NCBI GenBank assembly: GCA_006739055.1
Contig: AP019702.1
Location: 1,240,501-1,304,500 of the forward strand
Length of the DNA: 64,000 nt
Source of the DNA: Allostella vacuolata
GTDB lineage: Bacteria; Pseudomonadota; Alphaproteobacteria; ATCC43930; Allostellaceae
Direction of reading: 5' to 3'
Position numbers and translations under genes: made by a program. How positions within the stretch are numbered: position 1 is the first letter of the stretch; every line of letters starts with the position of its first letter. Shown piece by piece: positions 282 through 18,586 of the stretch. The notes under the pieces were generated by a model. It did no database searches. It was not told the origin of the DNA and saw only the letters and a program-made list of their open reading frames with translations.

Positions 282-569
282 ATGATCAAGATCCTCGCTT
301 CCGCCACCGTCGCCAGCCTGCTCGCCTTCGGTGCCGTCGCCGCCCCCCTGTCGCTCGACGAGGGCAAGTTCGGGATGAACCAGGACCAGGGCAAGTACGG
401 CGCGCTGGTCGATGACGGGAAGTTCGGTGCCAATGCCGACGAAGGCAAGCTCGGCGCGAACACCGATGAAGGCAAGTACGGCCGCAACACCGACGAGGGC
501 AAGTACGGCGCCAACGTCGACGAGGGCAAGTTCGGCCGGCTGATGGACGACGGCAAGCTCGGCCGCTAG
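282..569 (+). CDS. secreted DEGK nonapeptide-repeat protein
   Basis: This is a 95-residue protein with a typical Sec signal peptide: Lys at position 3, a hydrophobic stretch at about 4-19, and an AVAA cleavage region at 18-21. Everything after residue 25 is eight tandem copies of a 9-residue unit of the form D-x-G-K-(F/Y/L)-G-x-x-x; the last copy is shortened. There is no cysteine, so disulfides and lipidation are excluded. The mature chain alternates acidic residues, Lys and aromatic residues, suggesting either a regular repeat fold or a flexible polyampholyte in the periplasm or outside the cell. GGAG lies 7-8 bases before the ATG. I recognise no family and assign no function. The gene stands alone, with a palindrome upstream and hairpins downstream. 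Confidence 0.8.
   Translation: MIKILASATVASLLAFGAVAAPLSLDEGKFGMNQDQGKYGALVDDGKFGANADEGKLGANTDEGKYGRNTDEGKYGANVDEGKFGRLMDDGKLGR
357..566 (+). repeat. 27-bp tandem repeat, 7.8 copies, coding for D-x-G-K-aromatic-G units
   Basis: Units begin at 357, 384, 411, 438, 465, 492, 519 and 546, always with a GAC or GAT/GAA-type acidic codon pair followed by GGC/GGG-AAG. Asp1, Gly3, Lys4 and Gly6 of the unit are invariant in all copies, whereas DNA third positions and residues 7-9 vary. The array is therefore an old expansion held by selection on protein rather than a recent slippage product. Confidence 0.9.
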
Positions 570-722: not shown

Positions 723-1655
723 TCAGTACCCCCGCCCGCGATCGACCTGGTTGGGCAGCGGCTCGCCCCGCCGGGCCCGGGCGAGCGCGTCCGCGATCGC
801 CGCGGCGGCCGTCTCCGGCACCGTCAGGCTGGCGACGTGCGGGGTGACGGTCACGCCCGGGTGAAGCCAGAACGGATGGGCGGGCGGCAGCGGCTCGTCG
901 GCGAAGACATCCAGCACCGCGTGTTCCAGCCGGCCGCCGTCGAGCGCGGCCAGCAGGTCGGATTCGACCAGATGCCCGCCGCGGCCGGCATTGACCAGCC
1001 CGGCGCCGGGCGCCAGCCGGTCGAACAGGGGCCGGCCGAGAATGCCCCGCGTCTCCGCCGTCAGCGGCAGCAGGCAGACCAGGATCCGCGCCCGGGCGGC
1101 GAGCTCGGCCAGCCCTTCCGGGCCATGCAGGCAGACGACCCCGGGCATGCTCCGCGCGGTGCGCGACCAGCCCATGACCGGAAAGCCGATCCCGGCCAGC
1201 AGCTCCGCCGCCGCGCGGCCCAGCACCCCCATGCCGAGGATCCCGACCGGCCGCTCCGCCGGATCGCAGCGCGGCCGGGGGCTCCATTCGCAGGCGCGCT
1301 GCCGGCGCGCGTAGTGGTGCAGGTCGCGGTGCAGGAAGAGCACCGCCGACAGGACGTATTCCGCCATGCTGCGGGTCAGGGTGGGGTCGACCAGACGCAC
1401 GATCGGCAGCCCGGGCGGGATCGTGGCCGGGTCGCGCAGGAAGGCATCGACCCCGGCGCCGGTCGTGGCCAGGAAGCGCAGCCCGGGAAATCCCGACAGG
1501 GGCTCCGGCAGGGGCGACATGGCGACCACGACCTCGACCGCCGCGCGCGGGCCGACATCGGGCCAGACCCGGACCGGGCTGTCTCCCGCGACCGCGGCCA
1601 GGGCCGCCGCCCAGCGTTCGCGGCGGTCAGGACGGCAATGCAGCAGGATGGTCAT
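723..1655 (-). CDS. ghrA: GhrA-type NAD(P)-dependent D-2-hydroxyacid dehydrogenase (glyoxylate/hydroxypyruvate reductase A family)
   Basis: The 310-residue protein has the layout of GhrA: an N-terminal substrate lobe, then a Rossmann dinucleotide motif G-M-G-V-L-G at 141-146. The catalytic Arg (N-A-G-R-G-G, Arg225), Glu (D-E-P-L-P, Glu254) and His (T-P-H-V-A-S, His273) of the D-isomer-specific 2-hydroxyacid dehydrogenases are all in place. The expected reaction is reversible reduction of glyoxylate, hydroxypyruvate or a similar 2-keto acid to the D-hydroxy acid. The start at 1655 is preferred over 1682 because GGAG precedes it and GhrA homologues begin with a beta strand here. The gene is divergent from the SHMT-like gene. 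The pairing suggests the 2-keto acid comes from amino acid breakdown, which is inference. Confidence 0.9.
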   Translation of the reverse strand: MTILLHCRPDRRERWAAALAAVAGDSPVRVWPDVGPRAAVEVVVAMSPLPEPLSGFPGLRFLATTGAGVDAFLRDPATIPPGLPIVRLVDPTLTRSMAEYVLSAVLFLHRDLHHYARRQRACEWSPRPRCDPAERPVGILGMGVLGRAAAELLAGIGFPVMGWSRTARSMPGVVCLHGPEGLAELAARARILVCLLPLTAETRGILGRPLFDRLAPGAGLVNAGRGGHLVESDLLAALDGGRLEHAVLDVFADEPLPPAHPFWLHPGVTVTPHVASLTVPETAAAAIADALARARRGEPLPNQVDRGRGY

Positions 1656-1712
1656 GGGCGGCTCCGCGTCGGCTCGGCACATCGGTCGATCGGGATATAG
1701 TCACCCGACTCA

Positions 1713-1789: not shown

Positions 1790-3055
1790 ATGGGGCAGGG
1801 CGGCTGGGCGGCGCATTTCATCGAACCCCTGGCGACGGCCGATCCGGCGCTGGCGCGCCTGCTGGCGGACCAGCGGCGGCAGAACGACGAGACGGTGAAC
1901 CTGGTCGCCTCCGAGAGCTATTGCTGCCGTGCCGCCCTGGAGGCGGAGGCATCCTCGCTGGTGAACAAGAACGCGTCCGGCTATCCGCCACGGCGCTCGG
2001 TCGGCGGCGGCGAGATCCTGGACGCCGTCGAGCGGCTGGCGATCGCCCGCGCCCGGACCCTGTTCCAGGCCGAGCATGCGAACATCCAGGCTTTGTCCTC
2101 GACCATCGCCAACATCGCGGTGCTGCGCGGGCTGCTGGCGCCGGGCGACCGGATCCTGGCGCTGGATACGACGGCGGGCGGCCACGGCAGCCATGGCCAG
2201 GCGAGCCATATCTCCGGCCAGACCTACCGGGTCGAGAATTTCGGCGTCGACGAGGCGGCGGGCGGCATCGACTACGCGGCGGTGGCCGACCAGGCAGCGC
2301 GCTTCCGCCCGCGGATGATCGTGGCCGGCGCCACCGCCTATCCGAAGATGATCGACTTCGCCCAGCTGGGCCGGATCGCCGCGTCGGTGGGGGCGATGCT
2401 GTTCGCCGACATCGCCCATGTCTCGGGCCTGGTCGCGGCCGGCCTGCACCCCAATCCCACCCCGTTCGCCGACGCCGTGACGACCTCGACCCACAAGACC
2501 CTTTGCGGGCCGCGCACCGGCGGGCTGATCCTGAGCAAGGCCGCCCACGGCGCGGCGATCGACGCCGCCCTGTCGCCGGGCCTGCAGGCGGCGGCCGGCG
2601 CGCACATCATCGCCGCCCGGGCGCTGCTGTTCGACTGGGTAGCGCAGCCCTGGTTCGCCGGGCTGATGGGCCGGGTGCTGGAGAATGCCCGAGCCCTGGC
2701 CGAAGGGCTGGCGGCCGAAGAGCTGCCGCTCTACCTGGGCGGCACGGAGACGCACATGGTGGTGGTCGATCTGCGCGGCACCGCCTGGACGCCGGCCGCG
2801 CTCGGCACCCGGCTGCTCGAGCACGGCATCGTCGCCAGCACGACGCGCCTGCCGGGGCGGGACGGCGCCGGGGTCGGCCTGCGGCTGGGCTCGACGGCGA
2901 TGACCATCCGCGGCGCCGATGCCGCGTTGCATCGCGAGATCGGCGGCCTGCTCGCGCGCCTGGTGCGGGGCACGGACGACCCGGCCGACGCCGCGGCCGG
3001 GCAGCGGCTGCGCCGCATCGCCGCCGACTGCCCGATCCCGTTCCAGGGCACCTGA
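1790..3055 (+). CDS. serine hydroxymethyltransferase-like PLP enzyme with altered active site (possible alpha-methylserine-type aldolase)
   Basis: The 421-residue protein aligns over its full length with GlyA (E. coli length 417). PLP-binding features are kept: A-S-E-S at 40-43, F-A-D-I-A-H with Asp207 and His210, T-H-K-T-L with the Schiff-base Lys236, then G-P-R. But three residues needed for the serine/tetrahydrofolate reaction are changed: E. coli Tyr55 is Asn61, Glu57 is Ser63, and Tyr64-Tyr65 are Ser70-Val71. TRRG near the C-terminus reads TIRG. In SHMT, loss of this Glu abolishes folate-dependent transfer but spares folate-independent retro-aldol cleavage, so a side-chain-cleaving aldolase is more likely than housekeeping GlyA. 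It is divergent from the GhrA-type gene and convergent with an alanine-racemase-like gene 13 bases away. Substrate unknown. Confidence 0.85.
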   Translation: MGQGGWAAHFIEPLATADPALARLLADQRRQNDETVNLVASESYCCRAALEAEASSLVNKNASGYPPRRSVGGGEILDAVERLAIARARTLFQAEHANIQALSSTIANIAVLRGLLAPGDRILALDTTAGGHGSHGQASHISGQTYRVENFGVDEAAGGIDYAAVADQAARFRPRMIVAGATAYPKMIDFAQLGRIAASVGAMLFADIAHVSGLVAAGLHPNPTPFADAVTTSTHKTLCGPRTGGLILSKAAHGAAIDAALSPGLQAAAGAHIIAARALLFDWVAQPWFAGLMGRVLENARALAEGLAAEELPLYLGGTETHMVVVDLRGTAWTPAALGTRLLEHGIVASTTRLPGRDGAGVGLRLGSTAMTIRGADAALHREIGGLLARLVRGTDDPADAAAGQRLRRIAADCPIPFQGT

Positions 3056-3067
3056 GCGCCCTTCCTT

Positions 3068-4198
3068 CTATCCCAGGTGGATGCGCGGCATGCGGCCGCT
3101 CAGCATCAGCAGGATGTCGCTGCCGCTGGTCGCCTGCCATTCCGCCAGGTCGCCCAGGGTGATGGCGCGGTCGCCGCTGCGGCCGAGAATGACCACCTCG
3201 TCGCCGACCCGCGGGTCGGGCACGGCCGACAGGTCGATCACCGCGTGCTCGGACGAGACGCCCAGCACCGGCGCGACGATGCCGCCGACCAGCATGTGGC
3301 CGGCGCGCCCGGCGACCGCGGCCCGGTTCCCGTCGGCCCGGCCGAACGGCACCACCCCGGTCGCCCCGCTGACGCGGAAGGCGTGCCGGCTGTGCAGGCC
3401 CGGCGTCCGGTCGTGCGCCGCCGGGGCGACATGGATGAGGCGCGAGCGGACCGACTTCAGCACCGGCCGGATCAGCGAGGGGTCGCCCAGCTCCGGCGAC
3501 AGCGGCGACTTGCCGTAGAGCAGGCCGCCCGGCGCCACCGCGTTGCAGCGGTCGCGGATGCCGCCCAGCACGCCGGCGCTGGAGCGGGCCTGGGCGACCG
3601 GGAAGGCGAACCCTTCGCGGCGCATCCCGTCCACGAAATCGTCGAACCGATCGGTCCGGTCCTGGGCCCAGTCGCGCTCCTCGGCGTTGCCGAACGGCAG
3701 GTGGGTGTAGATGCCCTCCAGCGCGATGTTGGGCAGGGCAGCCACGGCGCGCACGAAGCCGGCCGCGTCCTTGAGCGGCACGCCGAGGCGGCCCAGGCCG
3801 CAATCCAGCTTCAGGTAGACCTTGGCGGGGCCGACCGCCGCGGCCGAGACCGCGCGGGCCAGCTCCATGTTGTGCACGGTCGGGATCACCCGCTCGGCCA
3901 GCAGCGCCGGGATGCCGTCCGGCAGGGTGCCGCCGAACATGACGATCTCGCAGTCGAGCCCGGCCTGCCGGATGGCGAGCGCATCGGTGAAGGCGCCGGT
4001 CGTCAGCGCGTCGGCGCCGAGGGCGACCAGCCGCCGCGACACCTCGACGATGCCCAGACCGTAGGCATTGCCCTTCACCGAGGCAATCACCCGGGTGCCG
4101 GGCGCCAGGCGGCTCTTCAGGTAGCGGTAGTTCGCGTCGAGGGCGGCGAGGTCGACCTCCATGAAGGTCGGCCGGGTCGGGGAGGGCTGGGCGGGCAT
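3068..4198 (-). CDS. alanine racemase-fold PLP enzyme lacking catalytic Tyr and cofactor Arg (Alr-like 1)
   Basis: The protein has 376 residues with the alanine racemase order: a fold-type III PLP barrel with Lys42 in S-V-K-G-N-A-Y-G, then a C-terminal beta domain (G-D-E-V-V-I-L-G at 332-339). Where racemases have the catalytic Tyr in G-Y-A-D-G, this protein has G-R-A-D-G (Arg287). The Arg that contacts the pyridine nitrogen (R-P-G-x-x-L-Y-G) is replaced in V-A-P-G-G-L-L-Y-G (Ala222). The C-terminal S-Y-R-x-P-R is S-G-R-M-P-R. A true two-base alanine racemase is therefore unlikely. Engineered Alr variants without this Tyr act as D-selective retro-aldolases, a reasonable alternative here. The ATG at 4198 opens the conserved domain. 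It is divergent from the GntR gene across a palindrome. Confidence 0.85.
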   Translation of the reverse strand: MPAQPSPTRPTFMEVDLAALDANYRYLKSRLAPGTRVIASVKGNAYGLGIVEVSRRLVALGADALTTGAFTDALAIRQAGLDCEIVMFGGTLPDGIPALLAERVIPTVHNMELARAVSAAAVGPAKVYLKLDCGLGRLGVPLKDAAGFVRAVAALPNIALEGIYTHLPFGNAEERDWAQDRTDRFDDFVDGMRREGFAFPVAQARSSAGVLGGIRDRCNAVAPGGLLYGKSPLSPELGDPSLIRPVLKSVRSRLIHVAPAAHDRTPGLHSRHAFRVSGATGVVPFGRADGNRAAVAGRAGHMLVGGIVAPVLGVSSEHAVIDLSAVPDPRVGDEVVILGRSGDRAITLGDLAEWQATSGSDILLMLSGRMPRIHLG

Positions 4199-4336: not shown

Positions 4337-5209
4337 ATGGCGCATCGAGTGCTCAACCCGTTTCCGAAGTACCTGCAGATCCGCGACATCCTGCGCACGC
4401 GCCTGGAGCGCGGCGCGGCGGTCGGCGACCAGCTGCCGACCGAGCACGCGCTGTGCGAGGAGTTCGGCGTCAGCCGCGAGACGATCCGCGACGCCCTGCT
4501 CGGCCTGGAGACGGAAGGGCTGGTGTCCCGGCGGCGCGGCCAGGGGACCTTCGTGATCAAGCTGCCGCCGCCCCGCAGCGAGCGGCGCCTGACCGGCCTG
4601 ACGGAGGATTTCAGCGCCCTCAAGCTCGATACCGAAGCGCGCGTGCTGGAGCGCGGGCTGGCGCTGCCGCCGCCGATCGTGGCCGAGATCATGGGCGTGG
4701 CGGCCGACGAGATGGTCTATCGCATCACCCGGCTGCGGCTCTTCTCGCGCGACCACTTCGCCCACCACGACGCGTTCCTGCCGCTGGAGATCGGCGCCCG
4801 CATCGCGCGCCTCGACCTCAGCCGCACCTCGATGATGCACGAGCTGCGCGAGACGCTCGGCCTCGACATCTGGGAGGATCACCAGCGCATCGAGGCGACG
4901 GTGGCCGACGGCGACATGGCGGCCCTGCTGCGGGTGCCGGCGGGTGCGCCGCTCCTGTGCATCACCCGCCACTTCCTGACCGGCGAGGACCAGACGGTGG
5001 TCGTCTTCCGGTCGCACTTCCGCGCCGACCGCTACTATTACACGGTCAAGCTCTCGCAGGGTAAGTCCGAGCCCCACGCGCGCGCGGCGCCCACGGCGCG
5101 CCGCGCCAAGTCCCCCCGCGCCAAGTCGTCCCGCGCCCCGCGCGCTCCAGCCGGAGACGCGGACCCAGGCCGCTTCGGCAGGCCCGCCCCGCAGAGGATC
5201 CACGCATGA
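4337..5209 (+). CDS. GntR-family transcriptional regulator, HutC subfamily (UTRA domain)
   Basis: The 290-residue protein has an N-terminal winged helix (about 10-75) with the GntR signature L-P-T-E-H-A-L-C-E-E-F-G-V-S-R-E-T-I-R and the wing R-R-G-Q-G-T-F. A UTRA ligand-binding domain follows (about 95-240; D-H-Q-R-I-E-A near 195, Y-Y-Y-T near 235). After UTRA there is an unusual basic, Pro/Arg/Lys/Ala-rich tail of about 50 residues with repeated A-K-S motifs and no predicted fold. It begins the operon for the opine dehydrogenase and amino acid importer and overlaps the next gene by ATGA, so repressor and operon are translationally coupled. An amino acid or intermediate is the likely effector (inference). 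Confidence 0.92.
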   Translation: MAHRVLNPFPKYLQIRDILRTRLERGAAVGDQLPTEHALCEEFGVSRETIRDALLGLETEGLVSRRRGQGTFVIKLPPPRSERRLTGLTEDFSALKLDTEARVLERGLALPPPIVAEIMGVAADEMVYRITRLRLFSRDHFAHHDAFLPLEIGARIARLDLSRTSMMHELRETLGLDIWEDHQRIEATVADGDMAALLRVPAGAPLLCITRHFLTGEDQTVVVFRSHFRADRYYYTVKLSQGKSEPHARAAPTARRAKSPRAKSSRAPRAPAGDADPGRFGRPAPQRIHA

Positions 5210-6300
5210 AGATCGCCATTCTCGGCGCCGGCAACGTCGCGCTCGCGACGGCCTGCTTCCTGGCCGATGCCGGGCACCCGGTGCATCTGTGGTCGGCCTT
5301 CGCCGAGGAGCGCGCCGCGCTCGCCGGTGGCCGGCTGTCGGCCGAAGGCGCGCTGACGGGCACCGTCGCGATCGCGGTGGCGGAGACCGCGCAGGCCGCG
5401 ATCGACGGGGCGGACCTCGTCGTCGTCGCGGCGCCGGCCTTCGGCCACCAGGCGCTGATGGAAGCCGCCGCCCCGCATCTCGCGGCGGACCAGACGGTCC
5501 TGATCCATCCCGTGACCGGCCTCAGCTCGCTGCTGCTGTCGCGGATGATGGCCGACCGGGGCCGGACGCCGACCATCGTCGACGCCTCCACCAGCCTCTT
5601 CACCGCGCGGCGCACCGGTCCGGCCGCGGTCCGGGTGCTGAAGGTCAAGGACGTGATCGAGCTGGCGGCGATCCCGGCCGACCGCGGGCCAAGGGCGCTG
5701 GCGATGCTGGAAGGCCTGTTCGGGCCGCGCTTCCGGCTGGAGCCGAACGCGCTCACCGTCTCGCTCAACAACCACAACCCCGTCTACCATGTGCCGCCGC
5801 TGCTCTGTAACCTGAGCCGGGCCGAGAAGCGCGAAGACTGGATGATCTGGGAGGGCATCACCCCCGGCGTCGCCCGCTTCGTGCAGCTGGTCGACGAGGA
5901 GCGCCTGCTGGTGGTCCGCCGCTACGGCACCCGGGAGGTGACGGTCGGCGACTATTTCCGCCAGGCGCATGGCGCGGTCGGCGAGACCCTGCCGGAGATC
6001 TTCCAGTCGGTGGCGAAGAAGCTGAAGGGGCCGATCGGGCCACAGAGCTTCGAGCATCGCTTCATCACCGAGGACGTGCCCTACGCGCTGGTCTTCTTCC
6101 ACGCCCTGGGCGAGGCGGCCGGCATCGCCATGCCGGTCACCCGCAACCTGATCGAGCTGACATCCGCCCTGTACGGGCGCGACTTCACGGCCGAGGGCCA
6201 TACGCTGGCCCGCCTCGGACTGGACGGGCTCGACCCGGCGGGGATCGTGCAGCGGACGATCGACGGCTTCCAGCCCGTCCGGGAGCCGGCCGATGGCTGA
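5206..6300 (+). CDS. NAD(P)-dependent octopine/nopaline (opine) dehydrogenase family protein
   Basis: The protein has 364 residues. The N-terminal Rossmann domain starts at once with A-I-L-G-A-G-N-V-A (residues 4-12), and the all-helical C-terminal opine dehydrogenase domain carries N-N-H-N-P-V-Y-H at 188-195, the conserved segment with the catalytic His. These enzymes reductively join an amino acid amine to a 2-keto acid, or oxidatively split such N-(carboxyalkyl) amino acids. Located between a GntR regulator and a polar amino acid importer, a catabolic role on an imported opine-like secondary amine is plausible. It overlaps gntR by 4 bases and the next ATPase gene by 8. Membership of the family is firm; substrate and direction are unknown. 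Confidence 0.88.
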
Positions 6301-7057
6301 GGCCGCGGCCCTGGCGGCATCCCCGCCCGCGATCGAGATGCGCGGCGTCGTCAAGCGCTATGGCGCGATCCAGGTGCTGAACGGCATCGACCTGGCGATC
6401 GACCGCGGCGAGGTGGTGGTGCTGTGCGGGCCGAGCGGCTCCGGCAAGAGCACGCTGCTCCGCTGCATCAACGGGCTGGAGCCGATCGAGGGCGGCCAGG
6501 TGCTGGTCGGCGGCCGGCCGATCGCCGCCAGCGGCTCCAAGCTGCAGGCGCTCGACCCGTCGATCGGCATGGTCTTCCAGTCCTTCAACCTCTTCCCGCA
6601 CCTGACGATCCTGCAGAACCTGATCCTGGCGCCGACCATGGTGCGCCGGCTGCCCCGCCAGGAGGCGGTCGAGCGGGCCCGGCGGCTGCTCGCCCGGGTC
6701 GGGATCGAGGAGAAGGCGGATGCCTTCCCCGACATGCTGTCGGGCGGCCAGCAGCAGCGGGTGGCGATCGCCCGCGCGCTGTGCATGCAGCCCGATCTGA
6801 TGCTGTTCGACGAACCGACCTCGGCCCTCGATCCGGAGATGATCCACGAGGTCCTCGACGTCATGCGGGACCTCGCTCGCGAGGGCATGACCATGGTCGT
6901 GGTCACCCATGAAATGGGCTTCGCCAAGGAAGTCGCGGACCGGGTCGTCTTCATGGACCAGGGGTTGATCGTCGAACAGGGAGCGCCCGAACAGTTCTTT
7001 TCCAATCCGACCGAGGAGCGGGCCCGGCAGTTCATCGGCAAGATTCTCGCGCGCTAG
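6293..7057 (+). CDS. polar amino acid ABC transporter ATP-binding protein (GlnQ/HisP type)
   Basis: The 254-residue ATPase has Walker [10 protein letters not shown] (46-54), the Q-loop [10 protein letters not shown] typical of the polar amino acid class, signature L-S-G-G-Q-Q-Q-R, Walker [10 protein letters not shown] and the switch His in V-T-H-E-M-G. It powers import with the binding protein and two permeases encoded next. Its first 8 bases lie inside the opine dehydrogenase gene. The N-terminal 13 residues before the ABC domain are an unconserved Ala-rich lead. Confidence 0.95.
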
Positions 7058-7112
7058 AGAAGAGGCCGGCCACGATCCGAACGGAACCGGAGCTAACGAA
7101 CAGGAGAGGCAG

Positions 7113-7964
7113 ATGTCGCGGATAGGTTCGTTGCTGGTAGGTCTTTTCGCCGTGTTCGTCCTGGCCGAGCCGGCCATGGCGCAATGCAACTGCACCAAGA
7201 CCATGATCGAGCAGGTGAAGGAACGCGGGGTGATCCGCGTCGGGGTCAAGAACGACGCCCCCTATCTCGGCTTCACCGACGAGAAGGGCCAGCTGGCCGG
7301 GTTCGAGATCGACCTGGTCAACGACATGGCCCGGCGGCTCGGCGTGAAGGTCGAGTTCGAGCCGGTCAAGGCCTCGAACCGGGTGCAGCTGCTGCAGCAG
7401 AACCGGATCGACCTGATCGTCGCCACGGTCAGCCACTATCGCGGCCGCGACCAGGTGGTCGACTTCACCATCCCCTATCTCTACACGCCGCAGACCCTGC
7501 TCGTGCGCAAGGGCAGCGGCATCCGCAGCGTGGCCGACCTGGCCGGCAAGCGCATCGGCCTCGACGCCGGCTCGGGCGGCGTGAAGAAGCTGCCGCAGAT
7601 CCAGCCCAAGGCGACGATCCAGACCTACCAGAACTGGCCGGAGGCGTTCTTCGCCCTGCAGCGCGGCCTGGTCGACGCGGTCGCCACCGACAACATCCTG
7701 CTGGCCGGGCTCCGGGCGGAGGCGCCCGATCCCAGCGCCTATGAGATGCTGGGCAAGGAGGGCTTCTACAGCGGCGGCTTCTATGCCGCGGTGCTGCGCG
7801 AGAACGACTCCAAGTCCCGCGACACGATCAACTTCCTGCTCCAGGACCAGTGGCGCGACGGCACCTGGCACCGGCTGTTCGACAAGTGGCTGGGCAAGGA
7901 GTCCAAGCTGAAGATGACGCTGGCGGACTTCGGCGACTTCGTCGTCCCCAACTGGGACGACTGA
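7113..7964 (+). CDS. periplasmic amino acid-binding protein (SBP family 3)
   Basis: The 283-residue protein has a signal peptide (about residues 1-24, hydrophobic core L-L-V-G-L-F-A-V-F-V-L-A, cleavage after A-M-A). It then has the family 3 core: G-V-I-R-V-G-V, P-Y-L-G-F-T-D and G-F-E-I-D-L-V near 55-72. Mature Cys residues follow in Q-C-N-C; spacing after the cleavage site argues against a lipobox. It should capture an amino acid or opine in the periplasm for the permeases that follow. AGGAG precedes the ATG. A strong hairpin follows the stop, separating this highly expressed component from the permease genes. Confidence 0.93.
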   Translation: MSRIGSLLVGLFAVFVLAEPAMAQCNCTKTMIEQVKERGVIRVGVKNDAPYLGFTDEKGQLAGFEIDLVNDMARRLGVKVEFEPVKASNRVQLLQQNRIDLIVATVSHYRGRDQVVDFTIPYLYTPQTLLVRKGSGIRSVADLAGKRIGLDAGSGGVKKLPQIQPKATIQTYQNWPEAFFALQRGLVDAVATDNILLAGLRAEAPDPSAYEMLGKEGFYSGGFYAAVLRENDSKSRDTINFLLQDQWRDGTWHRLFDKWLGKESKLKMTLADFGDFVVPNWDD

Positions 7965-7982
7965 GGACCGACGACGGACGAG

Positions 7983-8009
7983 GGCGGCCGGGCCTCGGGC
8001 CCGGCCGCC
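7983..8009 (+). other. 12-bp intra-operon stem-loop after the binding-protein gene
   Basis: GGCGGCCGGGCC (7983-7994) pairs perfectly with 7998-8009 around the loop TCG, 18 bases after the binding-protein stop and before the permease gene at 8033. Such stems between binding-protein and permease cistrons stabilise the upstream mRNA or attenuate transcription, giving excess binding protein. No U tract follows, so full termination is unlikely. Confidence 0.65.
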
Positions 8010-8032
8010 GCCCCTGAGCGGGAGAGCCAGCC

Positions 8033-8770
8033 GTGAACAGCGATTTCAGCGTCCTCCTGGGCGAACCCGGACGGTTGATCCTGGTCGGGCTCGTCGAGAC
8101 CCTCAAGCTTGCCGCCTGCTCGCTGGTGCTGGCGATCGCCATCGGCACCGTGGTCGGCACCGTGCGCTGGATCGGCTGGCGCCTGACCGAGCCCTTCTGC
8201 TGGCTCTACATCGAGTTCGCCCGCAACACGCCGCCCGTGGTGCAGATCCTGTTCTGGTACTTCTCGGCCTCGTTCGTGCTGCCGACGCCGATGTTCATGG
8301 CCCTCAGGGACTTCGGCTACGAACTCGGCGCGGCGATCCTGGCGCTCGCCCTCTATCACGGCGCCTTCTTCGCCGAGGTCATCCGCGCCGGCCTGAACTC
8401 GGTGCCGAAGGGCCAGTTCGAGGCGGCCCGCGCGCTTGGCCTGCGCTTCCCCCAGGCCCTGGGCAAGGTCGCCTTTCCGCAGGCGATCCGCGTCCTGGTG
8501 CCGCCGCTGGTCAACGAGGCGACGGCGCTCATCAAGAACACCTCGCTCGCCATGGCCATCGGCGTCGGCGAGATGACCTTCCAGTACCGCGCCATCGACA
8601 ACTTCCTCTTCCGCGGGCTGGAGGCGCTGACCGCCATCACCGTCATCTACATGCTGCTGTGCCTGATCGCGGTGGGCGTCGGCCGGCTGATCAACCGGGC
8701 GCTGTCGCGCCACATTCGCGCCCGCCACCCGGGCCGGGCGGTGCTGCCGGCCGGGAGCATCATCCAATGA
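8033..8770 (+). CDS. polar amino acid ABC transporter permease (HisM/GlnP type), subunit 1
   Basis: The 245-residue membrane protein has the HEAAG-type amino acid permease pattern. The first helix is at about 18-40 and L-Y-I-E-F-A-R-N-T-P near 60-70 is the conserved loop. The EAA loop E-A-A-R-A-L-G-L near 130-137 contacts the ATPase, and I-K-N-T-S-L-A-M-A-I near 165 is a further permease signature. It starts with GTG or ATG in a GGAG context after the hairpin; the frame opens at 8033 with GTG. It overlaps the second permease gene by four bases and forms a heterodimeric channel with it. Confidence 0.93.
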   Translation: MNSDFSVLLGEPGRLILVGLVETLKLAACSLVLAIAIGTVVGTVRWIGWRLTEPFCWLYIEFARNTPPVVQILFWYFSASFVLPTPMFMALRDFGYELGAAILALALYHGAFFAEVIRAGLNSVPKGQFEAARALGLRFPQALGKVAFPQAIRVLVPPLVNEATALIKNTSLAMAIGVGEMTFQYRAIDNFLFRGLEALTAITVIYMLLCLIAVGVGRLINRALSRHIRARHPGRAVLPAGSIIQ

Positions 8771-9477
8771 TGGACAACTGGGCCCGGGTCTGGACCCCGG
8801 CCAACCTGGAGCGGCTGCTGGTCGGCGACCTGTTCAGCCGCGGGCAGATGGGCGGCCTGCTGCTGACGCTCTGCATCGGCTTCCTGGCGATCGCCGGCTC
8901 GACCCTGATCGGGGCGGTCGTCGGCATCATGCGCGCCTCGCCGCGCAAGGCGCTCAACATCCCGGCGATGCTCTACGTCCAGGGCTTCCGCAACGTGCCG
9001 CTGCTGATCCTGGTCTTCTGGGCCTATTTCCTGCCGCCCGCCTTCGGCATCCAGACCTCGAAGTTCCTCAGCGTGCTGGTGGCGCTCACCCTCTTCACCG
9101 GCGCCTACATCGCCGAGATCGTCCAGGGCGGCATCCGCTCGGTGGCCCCGTCCAACCTGGAGGCGGCCCGGGCGCTCGGTCTCGGCCAGCGGCAGATCCA
9201 CCTCTGGGTCGTGCTGCCCCAGGCCTTCTTCAACATGCTGCCGGCGCTGGCCGGCCGCTACGTCGTCTCGATGAAGAACACTTCGCTCGCCTTCCTCATC
9301 GGTCTCATGGACCTGACGGAGATCGGCAAGCAGATCGGCGCCCGCCTGATGACGGCGCCGGTCGAAGTCTACCTGACGCTGCTCATCATGTACTTCGTCG
9401 TCAATCGCGGACTGACGATGTGCGTGCGGCTGCTGGAGAACCGACAGTATTTCAACCGGCTGTTCCTGCGCATCTGA
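8767..9477 (+). CDS. polar amino acid ABC transporter permease, subunit 2
   Basis: The protein has 236 residues from the ATG at 8767, which overlaps the stop of the previous gene (ATGATGG). It carries the same signatures: V-Q-G-F-R-N-V-P near 75-82, N-L-E-A-A-R-A-L-G-L near 133-142, and M-K-N-T-S-L-A-F-L-I-G near 171. About five transmembrane helices are expected. The frame is open further upstream, but that part reads as Pro/Arg-rich non-membrane sequence and overlaps the first permease, so the internal start is chosen. With the ATPase, binding protein and partner permease it completes a type I importer. Confidence 0.92.
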   Translation: MMDNWARVWTPANLERLLVGDLFSRGQMGGLLLTLCIGFLAIAGSTLIGAVVGIMRASPRKALNIPAMLYVQGFRNVPLLILVFWAYFLPPAFGIQTSKFLSVLVALTLFTGAYIAEIVQGGIRSVAPSNLEAARALGLGQRQIHLWVVLPQAFFNMLPALAGRYVVSMKNTSLAFLIGLMDLTEIGKQIGARLMTAPVEVYLTLLIMYFVVNRGLTMCVRLLENRQYFNRLFLRI

Positions 9478-9523: not shown

Positions 9524-10879
9524 ATGGATCGCAGCCACGCGCGGGAAATCGTCGCCAACTGGATGTTCCCGACCGTCAAGAGCAGCTACATGGGCGGTGC
9601 CGAGGATCGCCCGATCATCGCCAAGTCGGAGGGCTCGACCTTCACCGACACCGACGGCAAGACCTATCTCGACTTCCAGTCGGGCCAGATGGGGGCAGCA
9701 CTCGGCCACCAGCATCCGCGCATCGTCCACACCATCACCGAGACGATGAAGACGCTGCTGCACTCGACCAACACCATGCTCAACGTGCCGCGGCTGAAGC
9801 TGCACGAGACCCTGGGCCGGATCCTGCCCAAGCCGCTCGCCCGCTCGCTGTTCCTGGTCAGCGGCAGTGATGCGATCGAGGCGTCGATCGACCTGGCGCG
9901 CAAGGCGACCGGCGGGCTCGACGTGCTGGGCTTCCATTCCGGCCTGCACGGCTCGACCTCCTACCTGACGCGCTCGCTGTCCTTCGCCTGGAGCCGGCGC
10001 AAGCACACGGTGGTCGCCCCCGCCACCTCCTCTATCATGACCCCCAACTGCTACCGCTGCCCGCTCAAGCTGCAGCAGCCGAGCTGCCAGTTCGCCTGCA
10101 TGAAGATCAGCCTGGAACTGGCCGACGCCAACTTCACCTCGCAGCCGGCCGCCTTCATCGGCGAGCCGATCCTGAGCGCGGGCGGCGTCATCGTCCCCCC
10201 GCCCGGCTACTACAAGGTGCTGCGCCGGGAGCTCGAGAAGCGCGGCATGCTGATGATCTTCGACGAATCGCAGACCGGGCTCGGCAAGACCGGCAACCTG
10301 TTCGGCTTCCAGCTCCATGCCGGCGCCCAGCCGGACATCATGACGCTCTCGAAGCATTTCGGCGGCGGCCTGCCGATCAGCGCGGTCGTCACCACCGACG
10401 AGATCGCCGAGCGCGCGGTCGGCAACGGCTACTTCGCCACCCGCTCGCACGCGACCGACCCGCTGCTTTGCGCGGCCGGCGAGGAGAGCGTGAAGATCGT
10501 CGTCGAGGAGGACATGTCCGGCAAGGCGAAGCGGATCGAGACCCGCATCAAGGCCGCGCTCGAGGAGATGGCGAAGGAGATCGACCTGATCGGCGACGTG
10601 CGCGGCCACGGCGTGCTGCTCGGCATCGAACTGGTGACCGACCGGGACAAGAAGACGCCGGCCGACGCGGCGACCGAGAAGGTCGCCCAGGACTGCCAGG
10701 ACGCCGGGCTGATCTTCCAGCTCCGCGGCTACCAGGGCACCAAGAACATCATCCGCCTGGTGCCGCCGATGACCACCACCGACGAGGAGGTCGACCGCGC
10801 CATGGCGATCCTGCGCGACGCGCTGCTGGCCGCCCAGGCGGGTGTCAAGGCCGGCGCTCCCGCGCAGGCGGCCGACTGA
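9524..10879 (+). CDS. class III PLP enzyme related to 2,2-dialkylglycine decarboxylase
   Basis: The protein has 451 residues. S-G-Q-M (53-56) within F-Q-S-G-Q-M-G-A-A-L-G-H matches the Gln52 region characteristic of dialkylglycine decarboxylase, E-P-I-L-S near 214-218 matches its Ser215 loop, Lys277 in L-S-K is the Schiff-base lysine, and N-I-I-R near the C-terminus supplies the carboxylate Arg. Dialkylglycine decarboxylase's Trp138 is not conserved (G-L-H-G here), so substrate scope probably differs. An insert N-C-Y-R-C...S-C...A-C (Cys176, 179, 188, 192), also seen in some other class III aminotransferases, could bind metal or be structural. DGD decarboxylates alpha,alpha-disubstituted amino acids coupled to transamination. 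Co-transcribed with an amino acid importer. An ordinary omega-aminotransferase is the alternative. Confidence 0.82.
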   Translation: MDRSHAREIVANWMFPTVKSSYMGGAEDRPIIAKSEGSTFTDTDGKTYLDFQSGQMGAALGHQHPRIVHTITETMKTLLHSTNTMLNVPRLKLHETLGRILPKPLARSLFLVSGSDAIEASIDLARKATGGLDVLGFHSGLHGSTSYLTRSLSFAWSRRKHTVVAPATSSIMTPNCYRCPLKLQQPSCQFACMKISLELADANFTSQPAAFIGEPILSAGGVIVPPPGYYKVLRRELEKRGMLMIFDESQTGLGKTGNLFGFQLHAGAQPDIMTLSKHFGGGLPISAVVTTDEIAERAVGNGYFATRSHATDPLLCAAGEESVKIVVEEDMSGKAKRIETRIKAALEEMAKEIDLIGDVRGHGVLLGIELVTDRDKKTPADAATEKVAQDCQDAGLIFQLRGYQGTKNIIRLVPPMTTTDEEVDRAMAILRDALLAAQAGVKAGAPAQAAD

Positions 10880-10905
10880 CGTCCCGTCCGGATCAGGAGA
10901 GCATC

Positions 10906-12192
10906 ATGGCCCAGGCCCTGGAAGGCGAGACCACTTCGGTTCGCCGCGACCGTTTCGGCAATGCGATCGACCCGACCGTCGGCTACGCCCGCGGCGCCGT
11001 CCTCGCCAGCGAGCTGGCGGAGGCGACCCGCCAGCAGCGCGCCTACGAGATCATCCGCGACCGCTACGCCCGCATGGGCGACGACGGCGTCTTCAACATG
11101 ACGGGCCTGATCCGGGGGTTCCCCCTGCAGGACTCCGATGACGACGCCATGCGCTCCTACGTCCACTTCATCGCCCGTTCCCAGGGCGAGCTGGAGACGC
11201 TGGCGATCGCCCGCATGGGGGGCGATCCGGCGGTGCATGACGGGTTCCTGTCGACCCGCGTCACCGCCGGCATGCTGGCGACGATGCTGACGGTGCTGAA
11301 GCCGGGCGACCGCGTCGTCTCCCTGGTCGCGGCCGACCGCTCCCACCCGTCGGTGCGCCAGGCGGTCGTGCTGGCCCAGGGAACCTTCGAGGAGTTCACC
11401 GACCCCGCCGCCTTCGCGGCCGCGGTGGCGGCGGGCGTGGCGCCGAAGGCGGTGGTCTTCACCGCCATCTCGCCCTCCAAGAACCACCTGCCGCAGGCGG
11501 TGGTGGAGGCGGCAGCCGAGGCGGGCCGGCGGCGCGGCGCGCTCGTCATCCTCGACGACGCGCACATGGCGGCCCGCATCTCGCTCTACGACGAGCCGGG
11601 CGGCCTGGCGCTGGCCGGCGCGGACATTGCCGTCTGGTCGCTCGACAAGCACCTGGGCGGGCCGCGGTCCGGCTTCGTCGCCGGCCGGCGCGAACTGCTG
11701 GGGCCGATCCGTGCCCGGGCGCTGGGCCTCGGCGTGGAGGCGCAACCGGCCCAGTACCTGGCCGGTATCCACGCGGTCGAGGCGTTCGACCCCGAGCCGA
11801 TCCGCGCGGCGGCGCGCATGTCGGAACGGCTGCTGGAGGCGCTGCGGCCGGAGATCGGCGACAAGGCCTACCTGGCCGGGGCCGGGATCGCGGTCGGCGG
11901 CGAGGATTTCCTGGAGCTCGCCCTGCGCCGCTCGAACAAGCAGGCCTCCTCGGTGGTGCCGATCGAGGCCGTCGCCTATGCCTCGATGCGGGTGCTGCAG
12001 GAACATGGCGGGGTGATGATCCCGGCGGTCGGGATGCCGGGCTCCGCCTGCACCTTCCGCATCATGATGTACCCCGACGGCGCGCGCATGGGCGAGGAAC
12101 GCATCCACGCCGCCTGGCGCACGGCGATGGACGGCCTGGCTGCCGCCCTGGACGAGCCGGCCGACGTCGCCGCCTGGCTGGGGGCGCGGTAG
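10906..12192 (+). CDS. SelA-fold PLP-dependent enzyme of unknown reaction
   Basis: The 428-residue protein begins at the ATG at 10906 after CAGGAGA. It is a fold-type I PLP protein: the Schiff-base Lys248 lies in S-L-D-K-H-L-G-G-P-R-S-G, the form seen in the SelA/glucosaminate-6-phosphate-ammonia-lyase-like group, and Asp217-Asp218 lie in I-L-D-D-A-H. T-A-I-S-P-S-K-N-H-L near 186-195 has the substrate-binding look. It is the last gene of the amino acid import operon, 26 bases after the dialkylglycine-decarboxylase-like gene. Elimination, racemisation or C-C cleavage of an amino acid are all possible; I cannot choose. A selenocysteine role is unlikely, as no selB or tRNA-Sec is nearby. Confidence 0.8.
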   Translation: MAQALEGETTSVRRDRFGNAIDPTVGYARGAVLASELAEATRQQRAYEIIRDRYARMGDDGVFNMTGLIRGFPLQDSDDDAMRSYVHFIARSQGELETLAIARMGGDPAVHDGFLSTRVTAGMLATMLTVLKPGDRVVSLVAADRSHPSVRQAVVLAQGTFEEFTDPAAFAAAVAAGVAPKAVVFTAISPSKNHLPQAVVEAAAEAGRRRGALVILDDAHMAARISLYDEPGGLALAGADIAVWSLDKHLGGPRSGFVAGRRELLGPIRARALGLGVEAQPAQYLAGIHAVEAFDPEPIRAAARMSERLLEALRPEIGDKAYLAGAGIAVGGEDFLELALRRSNKQASSVVPIEAVAYASMRVLQEHGGVMIPAVGMPGSACTFRIMMYPDGARMGEERIHAAWRTAMDGLAAALDEPADVAAWLGAR

Positions 12193-12263: not shown

Positions 12264-13400
12264 CTACAGGTACACCCGCGGGACGTGGTCGCGCATCTGG
12301 CCGTGGAAGGTGGTCTCGTCGATGCCCCAGGCGGCGGCGCAGGCGGCGAGCGGGATTTCCGCCGTTCCCTGGCGGCCGACCAGCACCACCTCGTCACCGG
12401 GCCGGGCCTCCGGGCAGTCGGTCAGGTCGATGCGGGTATGCTCCAGGTGGACCGGTCCCAGCACCGGCACCTTGCGGCCACGGACCAGCACGCCCGCCCC
12501 GGCGGGGAAGCTGCGCGGCAGGCCGTCGCCCCAGCCGATCGGCAGGATGCCGATGGTCATGCCGGGGCGAGGGAGGAATGGCGGCGCCTCGCCGTCGGCG
12601 TCGTCCGGGCCGACCGCCTTGCGGATCAGCAGGCGGGTCTTGAAGGCGGCCAGCGCCGGCCGGAACGTGCCGCGGCGCGCCGGGCTGTCCGACCCCGCGA
12701 GGCCATAGAGCAGGCGGCCGGGGTCGACCCCGGTCAGGTCCATCTCGGGATGGTCGAGCACGGCGTTGGTGCTCGACACCATGGCGATCGGCACCGCCAC
12801 CCCGGCGGCCCGCGCCGCCTCGACGGCGGCCTGCATGCGGACGAACTGGCGCGGATAGTGCCCGGGCGCGCCGCTCGCCCCGTAGCTGAAGAAATGCCCG
12901 TAGAGGCCGGCGCACTCCAGGTTCGGCAGGTGCGGCAGCCGGTCGAGCAGCAAGGGGAATTCGGCCGCCGTGGCCCCGCCCCGCAGCAGGCCGACATCGA
13001 CCTTGAGGAACACCTTGCGCGGGCGGGTGAGGGCGGCGTCCCAGGCGGCCGCCTCCTCCACCGTGGAAACCGAGGGGATCAGGTCGAGCAGCTCCACCTG
13101 CCGGGCGACGTCGGGCAGGCAGGTCGGGTAGAGCAGGATCGGCGCGGCGATGCCGGCGGCACGGATCGCCACCGCGTCGTCGATGTTGCCGACCGCCAGC
13201 CCGTCGGCCCCGGCCTCGACGCAGGCACGCGACACCGGCGCTGCCCCGCAGCCATAGGCGTTCCGCTTCAGGCAGGCATAGATCGCGACCCCCGGCCCGA
13301 CCAGGCGGCGCAGCTCGCGCACATTGTGGCGGACGGCGCCGAGGTCGATCTCGTACCAGGTCGGCCGCAGGCCGCGGCCGCTTCCCATCTGCATCGTCAT
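12264..13400 (-). CDS. alanine racemase-fold PLP enzyme lacking catalytic Tyr (Alr-like 2)
   Basis: The 378-residue protein has the Alr architecture: Lys45 in C-L-K-R-N-A-Y-G at the N-terminal barrel and a C-terminal beta domain (G-D-E-V-V-L-V-G). The catalytic Tyr motif G-Y-A-D-G is I-G-W-G-D-G, with Trp290 in place of Tyr. The Arg next to the PLP nitrogen is Asp226 in V-D-P-G-R-L-L-Y-G; an acid at this spot would protonate the pyridine, as in fold-type I enzymes. The usual M-D loop before the C-terminal strands is L-E-H. Standard alanine racemase activity is therefore doubtful. It is only distantly similar to Alr-like 1 at 3068. Last gene of the Dpp-type operon, 47 bases after the HemL-like aminotransferase gene. 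Confidence 0.83.
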   Translation of the reverse strand: MTMQMGSGRGLRPTWYEIDLGAVRHNVRELRRLVGPGVAIYACLKRNAYGCGAAPVSRACVEAGADGLAVGNIDDAVAIRAAGIAAPILLYPTCLPDVARQVELLDLIPSVSTVEEAAAWDAALTRPRKVFLKVDVGLLRGGATAAEFPLLLDRLPHLPNLECAGLYGHFFSYGASGAPGHYPRQFVRMQAAVEAARAAGVAVPIAMVSSTNAVLDHPEMDLTGVDPGRLLYGLAGSDSPARRGTFRPALAAFKTRLLIRKAVGPDDADGEAPPFLPRPGMTIGILPIGWGDGLPRSFPAGAGVLVRGRKVPVLGPVHLEHTRIDLTDCPEARPGDEVVLVGRQGTAEIPLAACAAAWGIDETTFHGQMRDHVPRVYL

Positions 13401-13447: not shown

Positions 13448-14767
13448 CTACGCCGGCACGCGGATCTCCGCCAGGGAGCGGGCGACGGCGTCGAGCATGC
13501 GGTCGATCTCGGCATCGCCGACCACGGTCGACAGGTTGCCGCTGCAGTTGGCCGAGACCATGATGCCGCGGTTGAGCAGCGCCTTGTGCAGGGCGGTGAC
13601 CGCCGCCTGTGCCGCGGGCGTGGGGTAGGCCGAGCGATAGTCGGTGAGCGGGCGGCCGGTGAAGTGGATGCGGAACAGCGACCCCGCCCCCGACGCCTGG
13701 CCCTCGATCCCGGCCCGGGCGAAGATCCCGTCGATCGCCTCCCGGACCCGGGCGCCGGTCTGGTTGATGCGGCCGACCTCCTGCCCGCCGAACGCCTTCA
13801 GGGTCTCCAGCCCGGCCACCATCGACACCGGGTTGGCGTTGAAGGTACCGGTGTGGGGCACCGCCGGGCTGCCCTTGCGCTGGTCGAAGACGGACATGAT
13901 GTCGGCCCGCCCGGCGACCGCGCCGACCGGGAAGCCGCCGCCGATCAGCTTGCCGAGCGTCGTCATGTCCGGGACGATGCCGTAGCCGGCCTGGGCGCCG
14001 GCGACGCCGAGCCGGAACGAGATGATCTCGTCGAAGATCAGCGGGATGCCGACCCGGGAGGTGAAGGCGCGCAGGAAGGCCAGGAACTCCGGATCGGCCG
14101 GGATCATGCCCGGCCGGTTGGCGACCGGCTCGACGATGACCGCGGCCAGCTCGCCCGCCTCGGCCTCCAGGATGGCGGCGGCGGCCTCGATGTCGTTGAA
14201 GGGCATGACGACGGTGAGCTCGCCGACCGCGGGCGGCGTGCCCTTGGAGTAGGGGACGCGGGCCGGGACCCTGGCGTCCCCCCAGTTGGCGGGCGTGCTG
14301 CCGCGGCTCGCCTCCACGAAGTCGTAGGAGCCGTGATAGGCACCCTCGCACTTGGCGATCTTGTAGCGGCCGGTATGGGCGCGGGCCGCCTTGACGGCCA
14401 GCATCACCGCCTCGGTCCCGGAGTTGGTGAACCGCATCCGCTCGAACCACGGCGCGCGGGCCTGCAGGGCCTCGGCCAGCTCCACCTCGGCATCGGTCGG
14501 GCCCGAGAAGCAGGTGCCGCGCTGCAGCTGGGCGGCGGCCGCCGCCATCACCGGCTGGAAGCAATGGCCGTGCACCAGCGCCGACTGGTTGTTGATGAAG
14601 TCGAGGCGCTCGACGCCGTCGACGTCGGTCACCCGGCAACCCGAGGCGTGGGCGACGAAGATCGGGAACGGGTCCTGGTAGACCGCCAGCCGCGTGTTGC
14701 CGCCGGGCATGACCGCGCAGGCGCGCTCGAACAGGCGGGCGGATCGGGAGTTCGGATCGGGGTACAT
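13448..14767 (-). CDS. HemL-like class III aminotransferase (GSAM group)
   Basis: The 439-residue protein resembles glutamate-1-semialdehyde aminomutase along its length: P-G-G-N-T-R at 21-26 (HemL starts P-G-G-V), N-S-G-T-E-A (115-120) for the PLP phosphate, I-F-D-E (245-248) for the pyridine nitrogen and G-K-L-I-G-G-G with Lys273. It is unlikely to serve haem synthesis, because it sits one base downstream of a dipeptide-type ATPase gene in a transport operon. Known relatives outside haem synthesis include beta-amino acid and D-phenylglycine aminotransferases, so an unusual amine position or configuration is plausible. Substrate not determinable here. Confidence 0.85.
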   Translation of the reverse strand: MYPDPNSRSARLFERACAVMPGGNTRLAVYQDPFPIFVAHASGCRVTDVDGVERLDFINNQSALVHGHCFQPVMAAAAAQLQRGTCFSGPTDAEVELAEALQARAPWFERMRFTNSGTEAVMLAVKAARAHTGRYKIAKCEGAYHGSYDFVEASRGSTPANWGDARVPARVPYSKGTPPAVGELTVVMPFNDIEAAAAILEAEAGELAAVIVEPVANRPGMIPADPEFLAFLRAFTSRVGIPLIFDEIISFRLGVAGAQAGYGIVPDMTTLGKLIGGGFPVGAVAGRADIMSVFDQRKGSPAVPHTGTFNANPVSMVAGLETLKAFGGQEVGRINQTGARVREAIDGIFARAGIEGQASGAGSLFRIHFTGRPLTDYRSAYPTPAAQAAVTALHKALLNRGIMVSANCSGNLSTVVGDAEIDRMLDAVARSLAEIRVPA

Positions 14768-14768
14768 C

Positions 14769-15782
14769 TCAGGTCCCTCGGTTGGCCGGTGTCACGGTGG
14801 CATCGGGCGGCGGGTGCAGGTGGCAGGCGACGCCGCCGTCGGCGAACGGCGTCCAGGCGGGGGCTTCGACCGAGCAGATGGGCATCCGCCGCGGGCAGCG
14901 CGGGTGGAAGTGGCAGCCCTTGGGCGGATCGATCGCCGACGGCATCTCGCCCTCGATCCGCGCCAGCCGGTCGCGGGCGGCCGGGTCGGGCGGCAGCGAG
15001 GAATCGCGCAGGGCCAGGGTGTAGGGGTGCTTCGGGTCGGCGAAGACGCGCTCGACCGGGCCTTCCTCGACGATCCGGCCGAGATACATGACCGCGACCC
15101 GCTGGCAGAAGTTCCGCACCACCGCCAGGTCGTGGGAGATGAACAGGAGGCCGAGGTCGTGCTCGATGCGCAGCCCGTCCAGCAGCAGCAGGATCTGCGC
15201 CTGCACCGAGACGTCCAGCGCCGACACCGGCTCGTCGGCGACGATGAGCGGCGGGCGCAGGGCGAGCGCCCGGGCGATCGAGATCCGCTGCCGTTGCCCG
15301 CCGCTGAACTCGTGCGGGAACTTGGCCGCGGCATTCTCCGGCAGCCCTACCTCGCGCAGCAGCTCGGCCACCCGGGCGCGGATCTGGGCGCGCGACAGGC
15401 CGCCCGCGATCGCCAGCGGCTCGGCCAGCGTCGTGCCGATGGCAAGGCGCGGGTTGAGCGAGGAGAAGGGGTCCTGGAAGACCATCTGCACGCTGCGGTG
15501 CAGGCGGCGGCCGCGGGCGGAGCGGCCGGTGGTCAGTGCCTCGCCCTCGACCGTGATGCGGCCGGAATCGGGCGTCAGCAGGCCGACGATGCAGCGCGCG
15601 ACGGTCGACTTGCCGCAGCCGGATTCCCCCACCAGCCCGTAGCTCTGGCCGCGCTCGACCGTGAAGCTGACGCCGTCGATGGCGCGGACGGCCTGGCGGG
15701 GGCCGAAGCCGCCGCCCGGCACCGGGAAGAACTTGCGCAGGTCGCGCACCTCGAGGATCGGCGGCACCAATCTGGCCTTCAT
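14769..15782 (-). CDS. oligopeptide/dipeptide ABC transporter ATP-binding protein (DppF/OppF type)
   Basis: The 337-residue ATPase has Walker [11 protein letters not shown]-loop V-F-Q-D-P-F-S-S-L-N-P, signature F-S-G-G-Q-R-Q-R, and Walker B L-I-V-A-D-E-P-V-S-A-L-D. The Opp/Dpp C-terminal Cys cluster is present (G-C-H-F-H-P-R-C-P near 300, further Cys in I-C-S and A-C-H) and is likely an iron-sulfur or disulfide element of this class. Overlaps the DppD-type gene by four bases (ATG at 15782). Works as a heterodimer with it. Confidence 0.95.
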   Translation of the reverse strand: MKARLVPPILEVRDLRKFFPVPGGGFGPRQAVRAIDGVSFTVERGQSYGLVGESGCGKSTVARCIVGLLTPDSGRITVEGEALTTGRSARGRRLHRSVQMVFQDPFSSLNPRLAIGTTLAEPLAIAGGLSRAQIRARVAELLREVGLPENAAAKFPHEFSGGQRQRISIARALALRPPLIVADEPVSALDVSVQAQILLLLDGLRIEHDLGLLFISHDLAVVRNFCQRVAVMYLGRIVEEGPVERVFADPKHPYTLALRDSSLPPDPAARDRLARIEGEMPSAIDPPKGCHFHPRCPRRMPICSVEAPAWTPFADGGVACHLHPPPDATVTPANRGT

Positions 15783-16765: not shown

Positions 16766-16768
16766 CGC

Positions 16769-18549: not shown

Positions 18550-18586
18550 GGTGGCCGCTACCCCGCCGTTCCTGCCGGGCGCCCGC

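Follow-up and report, generated by a model that had tools for sequence, protein, structure and literature searches.

A Tyr265-less, Arg219-less enzyme of the alanine racemase fold in an Allostella vacuolata gene module: a candidate PLP lyase

The gene described here, ALR1, lies in a 64,000-nucleotide stretch of the Allostella vacuolata genome (contig AP019702.1, positions 1,240,501 to 1,304,500 of the forward strand; hereafter the window) and encodes a protein with the fold of alanine racemase (Alr). The locus raises two questions: (i) whether the product is an alanine racemase at all; and (ii) if it is not, which PLP-dependent reaction it may catalyze instead.

3068..4198, minus strand: ALR1, a Tyr265-less, Arg219-less alanine-racemase-fold PLP enzyme of 376 aa

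The open reading frame is intact, with an ATG at 4198 and a stop codon at 3068-3070. Its product matches Ala_racemase_N (E 4.3e-49) and Ala_racemase_C (E 2.2e-16), and both alanine racemase domains are thus present; against the NCBIfam equivalog TIGR00492 (alr) it scores 187.2 bits, above the cut-off of 168. Automatic pipelines would therefore label ALR1 an alanine racemase, while its relative in Phyllobacterium stays below the same cut-off (156.5 bits). The solved structures nearest to ALR1 are all alanine racemases, the best PDB match being 4y2w (full-length alignment, E 5e-40). A domain search of the C-terminal region detected Ala_racemase_C only, and no metal-site domain of the D-ser_dehydrat type. 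The AlphaFold model has a mean pLDDT of 56, with a poor C-terminal domain. Between ALR1 and its orthologue in Oceanibaculum pacificum, pN is 0.139 and pS is 0.375 (dN 0.15, dS 0.52), from which we conclude that the gene is under constraint. A separate canonical alanine racemase is encoded elsewhere in the same genome (C1:2859095-2860174).

The active site was compared with that of Geobacillus (Gs) Alr, numbered by counting along its sequence, which places Lys39 in KANAYG, Arg219 in NMVRFG and Tyr265 in VSYG. By the same count the tyrosine of GYADG is Tyr284, and Tyr265 lies 19 residues earlier. We take Tyr274 of E. coli Alr to lie in a motif of the GYADG type as well, from its sequence and from the 19-residue spacing. 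That spacing also separates the E. coli catalytic base, Tyr255, from the entryway residue Tyr274 (PMC5025676). The codons of ALR1 that matter for the mechanism, each assigned by alignment, are:

4073..4075, minus strand: Lys42, equivalent to Gs Lys39, the PLP lysine; kept
3701..3703, minus strand: His166, equivalent to Gs His166, the proposed retro-aldol base in Alr Y265A; kept (PMC3962226, PMC4401734)
3533..3535, minus strand: Ala222, at the position of Gs Arg219, the PLP N1 contact; arginine lost
3395..3397, minus strand: Leu268, in the true column of the catalytic Tyr265
3338..3340, minus strand: Arg287 (CGG) of GRADG, at the position of Gs Tyr284 and E. coli Tyr274, an entryway residue and not the catalytic base
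3248..3256, minus strand: Ser315-Ser316-Glu317, at the position of Gs Cys311-Met312-Asp313, which is supplied by the other subunit

A sequence-only reading of the window had described Lys42 as kept, Ala222 as standing in for the PLP-contacting arginine, and the motif as GRADG with Arg287, and the alignment to Geobacillus Alr agrees on all three. The reading had also taken GYADG as the carrier of the catalytic tyrosine, and on this point it was mistaken: Arg287 replaces the entryway Tyr284 and does not fall in the Tyr265 column. Leu268 stands opposite Tyr265 by exact spacing, there being no gap between HV (Gs 253-254) and GYADG. The claim that ALR1 has no catalytic tyrosine therefore survives, but for a different residue from the one named.

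Beyond Lys39 and His166, ALR1 keeps Gs Tyr43, Lys129 and Arg136, and the PLP phosphate site is retained (Tyr43, Ser204, Gly221). Arg219, Tyr265, Tyr284, Arg290, Met312-Asp313, Tyr354 and the His200 partner are all replaced. In canonical Alr, Arg219 holds PLP N1 and lowers the pKa of Tyr265 through a histidine, and Tyr265, Tyr284 and Tyr354 line the inner entryway (PMC3245724). The entryway tyrosine itself is of modest catalytic weight: in the E. coli enzyme, Y274F lowers kcat only 1.4-fold at a 1.7-fold cost in Km, and a sulfate in the crystal forms a hydrogen bond with Tyr274 (PMC5025676).

To place these replacements among homologues, we compared in one alignment 18 non-canonical sequences, ALR1 among them, and a canonical set of 31 made up of 29 class members, Gs Alr and the canonical enzyme encoded in the same genome as ALR1; the homologues were sampled from public genomes and plasmids. 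Arg219, Tyr265 and Tyr284 are all kept in the 30 canonical enzymes, out of 30, that have a letter at the site. Arg219 and Tyr284 are missing from every non-canonical sequence, and Tyr265 from 17 of the 18, the exception being the Sinorhizobium meliloti member. All 18 retain Lys39, Tyr43, Arg136, His166 and Ser204; all have Gln in the His200 column and Glu at 313 (Gs numbering), and position 219 is Ala, Cys or Ser. As judged from the aligned columns, the racemase apparatus around Arg219 and Tyr265 is dismantled as a set in the non-canonical group.

Within that group ALR1 belongs to a clade of four sequences (support 95/100), the others coming from O. pacificum (77% identity), a Phyllobacterium zundukense plasmid (56%) and an S. 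meliloti plasmid (53%). Ala219, Arg284, Arg205 and Ser-Ser-Glu at 311-313 are common to all four, and the 265 column reads Leu, Leu, Val and Tyr. Set against the 30 canonical enzymes that keep Arg219, Tyr265 and Tyr284, the clade-wide Ala219 and Arg284 indicate that the losses are not due to chance. The clade is rare. Orthologue-level ALR1 occurs in 2 of 387 class genomes, those of the window and of O. pacificum, and was not found in the sampled congeners of either; in a plasmid search only the two rhizobial relatives exceeded 50% identity. A literature search turned up neither a Tyr-less Alr family nor a PhyH-Alr pair.

The surroundings of ALR1 in the window bear on the second question. They comprise:

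723..1682, minus strand: GhrA-like 2-hydroxyacid dehydrogenase; the O. pacificum orthologue lies 13 bp downstream of ALR1
1790..3055, plus strand: SHMT-like enzyme without SHMT Tyr51, Glu53, Tyr60 and Tyr61 (alignment, bsSHMT numbering)
4337..5209, plus strand: GntR/UTRA (HutC-type) regulator, divergent from ALR1
5206..6300, plus strand: opine-dehydrogenase-like protein; best PDB match 1bg6, N-(1-D-carboxylethyl)-L-norvaline dehydrogenase
6293..9477, plus strand: polar amino-acid-type ABC importer (ATPase 6293-7057, binding protein 7113-7964, permeases 8033-8770 and 8767-9477)
9524..10879, plus strand: class III PLP enzyme nearest 2,2-dialkylglycine decarboxylase (PDB match, aligned residues)
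10900..12192, plus strand: TIGR03576 / MJ0158-like PLP enzyme
12264..13400, minus strand: ALR2, a second Alr-like enzyme, with Asp219, Glu265 and Trp284 (start codon approximate)

Nine of the window genes, together with the regulator, recur around the ALR1 orthologue of O. pacificum at 59-89% identity: GntR, TIGR03576, the class III enzyme, the two permeases, binding protein and ATPase of the importer, the opine-dehydrogenase-like gene, ALR1 and the GhrA-like dehydrogenase, the last two being separated by 13 bp. A scan of genome contigs returned O. pacificum only, and a plasmid search with TIGR03576 gave no match.

The class III enzyme aligns to dialkylglycine decarboxylase with E 5e-85, compared with 1e-51 for the next family. 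It keeps the columns of Gln52, Ser215, Lys272 and Arg406, residues with established roles in dialkylglycine decarboxylase, and its Leu and Ser for Trp138 and Met141 (W138L, M141S) suggest an altered substrate pocket. An assignment as PbfA was rejected (248.7 bits against a cut-off of 525), dialkylglycine decarboxylase being the best PDB match.

ALR2 lacks both Arg219 and Tyr265 and has the motif GWGDG; in the tree it lies, with the canonical enzymes, across a 100/99 branch from the ALR1 clade. Relatives of ALR2 with Asp219 and Trp284 are present on Sinorhizobium and Agrobacterium plasmids, one of them inside an amino-acid ABC operon of A. vitis, and the O. pacificum relative has Tyr in the 265 column. 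On the strand of ALR2, 13448-21193 (minus) holds a GSAM-like aminomutase, a dipeptide-type ABC importer and an IlvE/D-amino-acid-transaminase-like gene, which probably form a second amino acid catabolic operon. At the other end of the region, 282-569 (plus) is predicted to encode a small protein whose N-terminus is signal-like; the gene contains tandem repeats of 27 bp, with units like DEGKFGAN.

The SHMT-like gene is convergent with ALR1 on the opposite strand, and its product is 44% identical to the other SHMT of the genome. In O. pacificum a copy that is 59% identical shares a contig with the ALR1 orthologue, and a 42% copy is on another contig; the former overlaps the ALR2 relative by 4 bp, with another ABC importer before it. 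The SHMT-like gene, ALR1 and ALR2 thus travel together, in keeping with the link that the sequence-only reading had drawn between ALR1 and its neighbour. Its label of aldolase for that neighbour fares less well. In the SHMT-like proteins Asn, Ser/Thr, Ser/Asn and Val stand at SHMT Tyr51, Glu53, Tyr60 and Tyr61, the Glu53 and Tyr61 columns holding Ser and Val in the window and Thr and Val in O. pacificum. In SHMT, Glu53 is proposed to act as the general base, and Tyr61 makes contact with the substrate (PMC10397204). With both missing the protein is not an ordinary SHMT, and its function cannot vouch for an aldol pathway.

Both PLP neighbours have relatives that handle alpha-quaternary or similar substrates. 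AibC, of the SHMT family, decarboxylates aminomethylmalonate, and dialkylglycine decarboxylase uses 2-aminoisobutyrate (PMC7782822); in TRIS breakdown, mSHMT plausibly acts on 2-hydroxymethylserine (PMC10848231). A module for alpha,alpha-disubstituted amino acids would be the reading that best unites the dialkylglycine-decarboxylase-like and SHMT-like neighbours. The known alpha-quaternary pathways (dialkylglycine decarboxylase, the aib cluster, mSHMT/TRIS) share these two enzyme types and an amino-acid importer with the window, but the aib and TRIS clusters as reported hold no racemase, opine-dehydrogenase or TIGR03576 gene.

Mechanical ORF calls, together with scans against selected Pfam/NCBIfam models, gave the contexts of the non-canonical relatives, so that the neighbours listed may be incomplete. 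The ALR1 relative is immediately 5′ of a metallophosphoesterase gene in both S. meliloti RRI128 and Phyllobacterium, and these regions also carry an NPP-type phosphodiesterase and genes for ABC transporters. Two further genes of the S. meliloti locus, one for an aminotransferase and one phosphonopyruvate-hydrolase-like (360 bits against a cut-off of 374), resemble those of phosphonoalanine breakdown by PalA/PalB; they lie at 4837-6922 (minus strand) of locus L020 on plasmid pRRI128_3, near an Alr-like gene and phosphodiesterases. An aepX-containing cluster occurs within the same 29-kb stretch of that plasmid. This context suggests that an anionic phospho- or phosphono-amino acid may be the substrate in the rhizobia, which would fit Arg287 as an anion binder. 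PalA/PalB-type genes were not found in the examined part of the window or in the O. pacificum locus, and phosphonate breakdown was set aside as the job of the window module, phosphonate-type genes being confined to the vicinity of the rhizobial relatives.

In sister groups a different partner appears. Homologues with Cys219 or Ser219 adjoin a PhyH-family oxygenase gene in four loci (L025, L026, L027 and L034), and in a fifth (L033, 9858-11786, minus strand) a 642-residue ORF fuses PhyH (residues 5-213) to a Tyr-less Alr (277-623). The fused oxygenase part is nearest to the ectoine hydroxylase model, below that model's cut-off. Adjacency and fusion of this kind are expected of a pair that hydroxylates and then cleaves; carnitine synthesis offers a precedent, with hydroxylation followed by PLP-dependent aldol cleavage (PMC11016064).

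Taken with the residues, these observations make it very likely that ALR1 does not work as an alanine racemase by the usual two-base mechanism. Our preferred reading, to which we give a rough probability of 0.4, is that it is a PLP lyase and not a racemase, most likely an aldolase acting through Lys42 and His166. The lyase chemistry, its stereochemistry, the anion binding and the substrate class set out here are what we infer from the fold family, gene, residues, clade and module observed. Loss of Tyr265 would leave one face of the cofactor without its base and free space there, and loss of Arg219 and its histidine partner would remove the network that tunes Tyr265 and holds PLP in racemase mode. 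Lys42 would then be the sole retained Cα base, with His166 close by. The predicted reaction is a retro-aldol-type Cα-Cβ cleavage whose substrate would be a beta-hydroxy amino acid, either D-configured or alpha,alpha-disubstituted. The substrate side chain would occupy the room left by Tyr265, the beta-hydroxyl would lose its proton to His166, and Lys42 would protonate the product carbanion. Arg287, perhaps along with Arg205 and Ser315/316, could hold an extra anionic group of the substrate. This last proposal is supported by the entryway location of position 284, which binds sulfate in E. coli Alr, and by the invariance of Arg284 and Arg205 in the clade. The cleavage product could feed the adjacent GhrA-like dehydrogenase.

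The closest precedent is an engineered one, to which the sequence-only reading had already pointed. In Gs Alr, Y265A raises aldolase activity 2.3×10^5-fold and lowers racemase activity 4×10^3-fold, with D-selectivity and with His166 as the proposed base (PMC3962226), and this substitution alone makes the enzyme a D-specific aldolase (PMC3962226, PMC4401734, PMC6411801). The comparison with Y265A appears apt at the level of residues: ALR1 has a smaller residue for Tyr265 and keeps the equivalents of Lys39 and His166. It differs in being natural and in also lacking Arg219, Tyr284 and Tyr354. Natural D-threonine aldolase likewise has no arginine at PLP N1, but Gln249 instead (PMC4401734). The fold type III D-threonine and D-3-hydroxyaspartate aldolases share with ALR1 a related barrel and the PLP lysine, although their C-terminal domain is a different one with a metal site, and the match of ALR1 to 6qkb, of this group, is local only (residues 122-191, E 9e-5). 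It is because ALR1 has these key features in common with Y265A and D-threonine aldolase that we favor a Lys42/His166 lyase as the best single reading. Several points count against an aldolase: the PhyH link belongs to sister groups and not to the ALR1 clade itself; the S. meliloti clade member has Tyr in the 265 column; and the rhizobial phosphodiesterase context would fit elimination from a phospho-amino acid equally well.

Such an elimination is one of several alternative scenarios. Lys42 would take the alpha-hydrogen of a D-amino acid, and a hydroxyl, phosphate or phosphonate bound by Arg287 would leave, so that ALR1 would be a beta-elimination lyase (dehydratase or phospho-lyase) yielding a keto acid and ammonia. 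The transporter and phosphodiesterase genes around the S. meliloti and Phyllobacterium relatives would suit it, as would the phosphonopyruvate-hydrolase-like and aminotransferase genes; the 2-hydroxyacid dehydrogenase next to ALR1 could reduce the keto acid, and D-serine dehydratase shares the barrel fold. We consider it unlikely, because ALR1 ends in Ala_racemase_C and has no metal-binding D-ser_dehydrat domain, and the quaternary amino acids suggested by the window module would have no alpha-hydrogen. Nor do we think it probable that ALR1 is a racemase or epimerase of an anionic amino acid with another second base, e.g., His269 or Glu317. Glu317 occupies the Gs Asp313 position, where Glu is found in all the non-canonical sequences, and the retained Lys129 and Arg136, the TIGR00492 score and the S. 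meliloti Tyr265 point the same way; but Arg219, Tyr265, Tyr284, Arg290, Met312, Asp313, Tyr354 and the His200 partner have changed together, position 265 varies freely, and the genome has its separate canonical Alr.

Two further readings carry less weight. ALR1 might be a decarboxylase or decarboxylating transaminase for an alpha,alpha-disubstituted or aminomalonate-type amino acid, given its dialkylglycine-decarboxylase-like and SHMT-like neighbours. Some other fold-III enzymes are indeed decarboxylases, and in the SHMT family AibC acts on aminomethylmalonate (PMC7782822). Arg136 and the Lys129 position, which hold the alpha-carboxylate, are kept, however, and the C-terminal domain of known fold-III decarboxylases belongs to another family, which makes this quite improbable. 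Least credible of all is that ALR1 is a decaying gene or a PLP-binding protein with little or no activity. The lost racemase residues would be explained, but Lys42 and the phosphate site are intact, dN is well below dS relative to O. pacificum, and a distant genus has preserved ALR1 together with its module.

Finally, we note what a Lys42/His166 lyase would imply for the family. Alr/DadX (EC 5.1.1.1; Geobacillus 1bd0, E. coli 2rjg) and ALR1 have in common both Pfam domains, the PLP lysine, Tyr43, Arg136 and His166, but Alr/DadX keep Arg219, Tyr265, Tyr284, Arg290, Met312-Asp313 and Tyr354, whereas ALR1 lacks these and is part of a catabolic module. It is possible, if somewhat doubtful, that the Alphaproteobacteria hold a natural aldolase/lyase family derived from Alr by loss of Tyr265 and Arg219, in which sister groups would work with adjacent or fused PhyH hydroxylases and the window clade would act on an anionic or alpha-quaternary amino acid within a mobile catabolic module. 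Proteins without the catalytic tyrosine are named alanine racemase in public records, and ALR1 passes even the curated TIGR00492 cut-off. If these enzymes are aldolases, nature would have repeated a textbook single-residue redesign, providing D-selective C-C lyases on the Alr scaffold and giving access to a new pathway by which an unusual amino acid is broken down. The Tyr265/Arg219 pair may then be what sets racemases apart from lyases on that scaffold.
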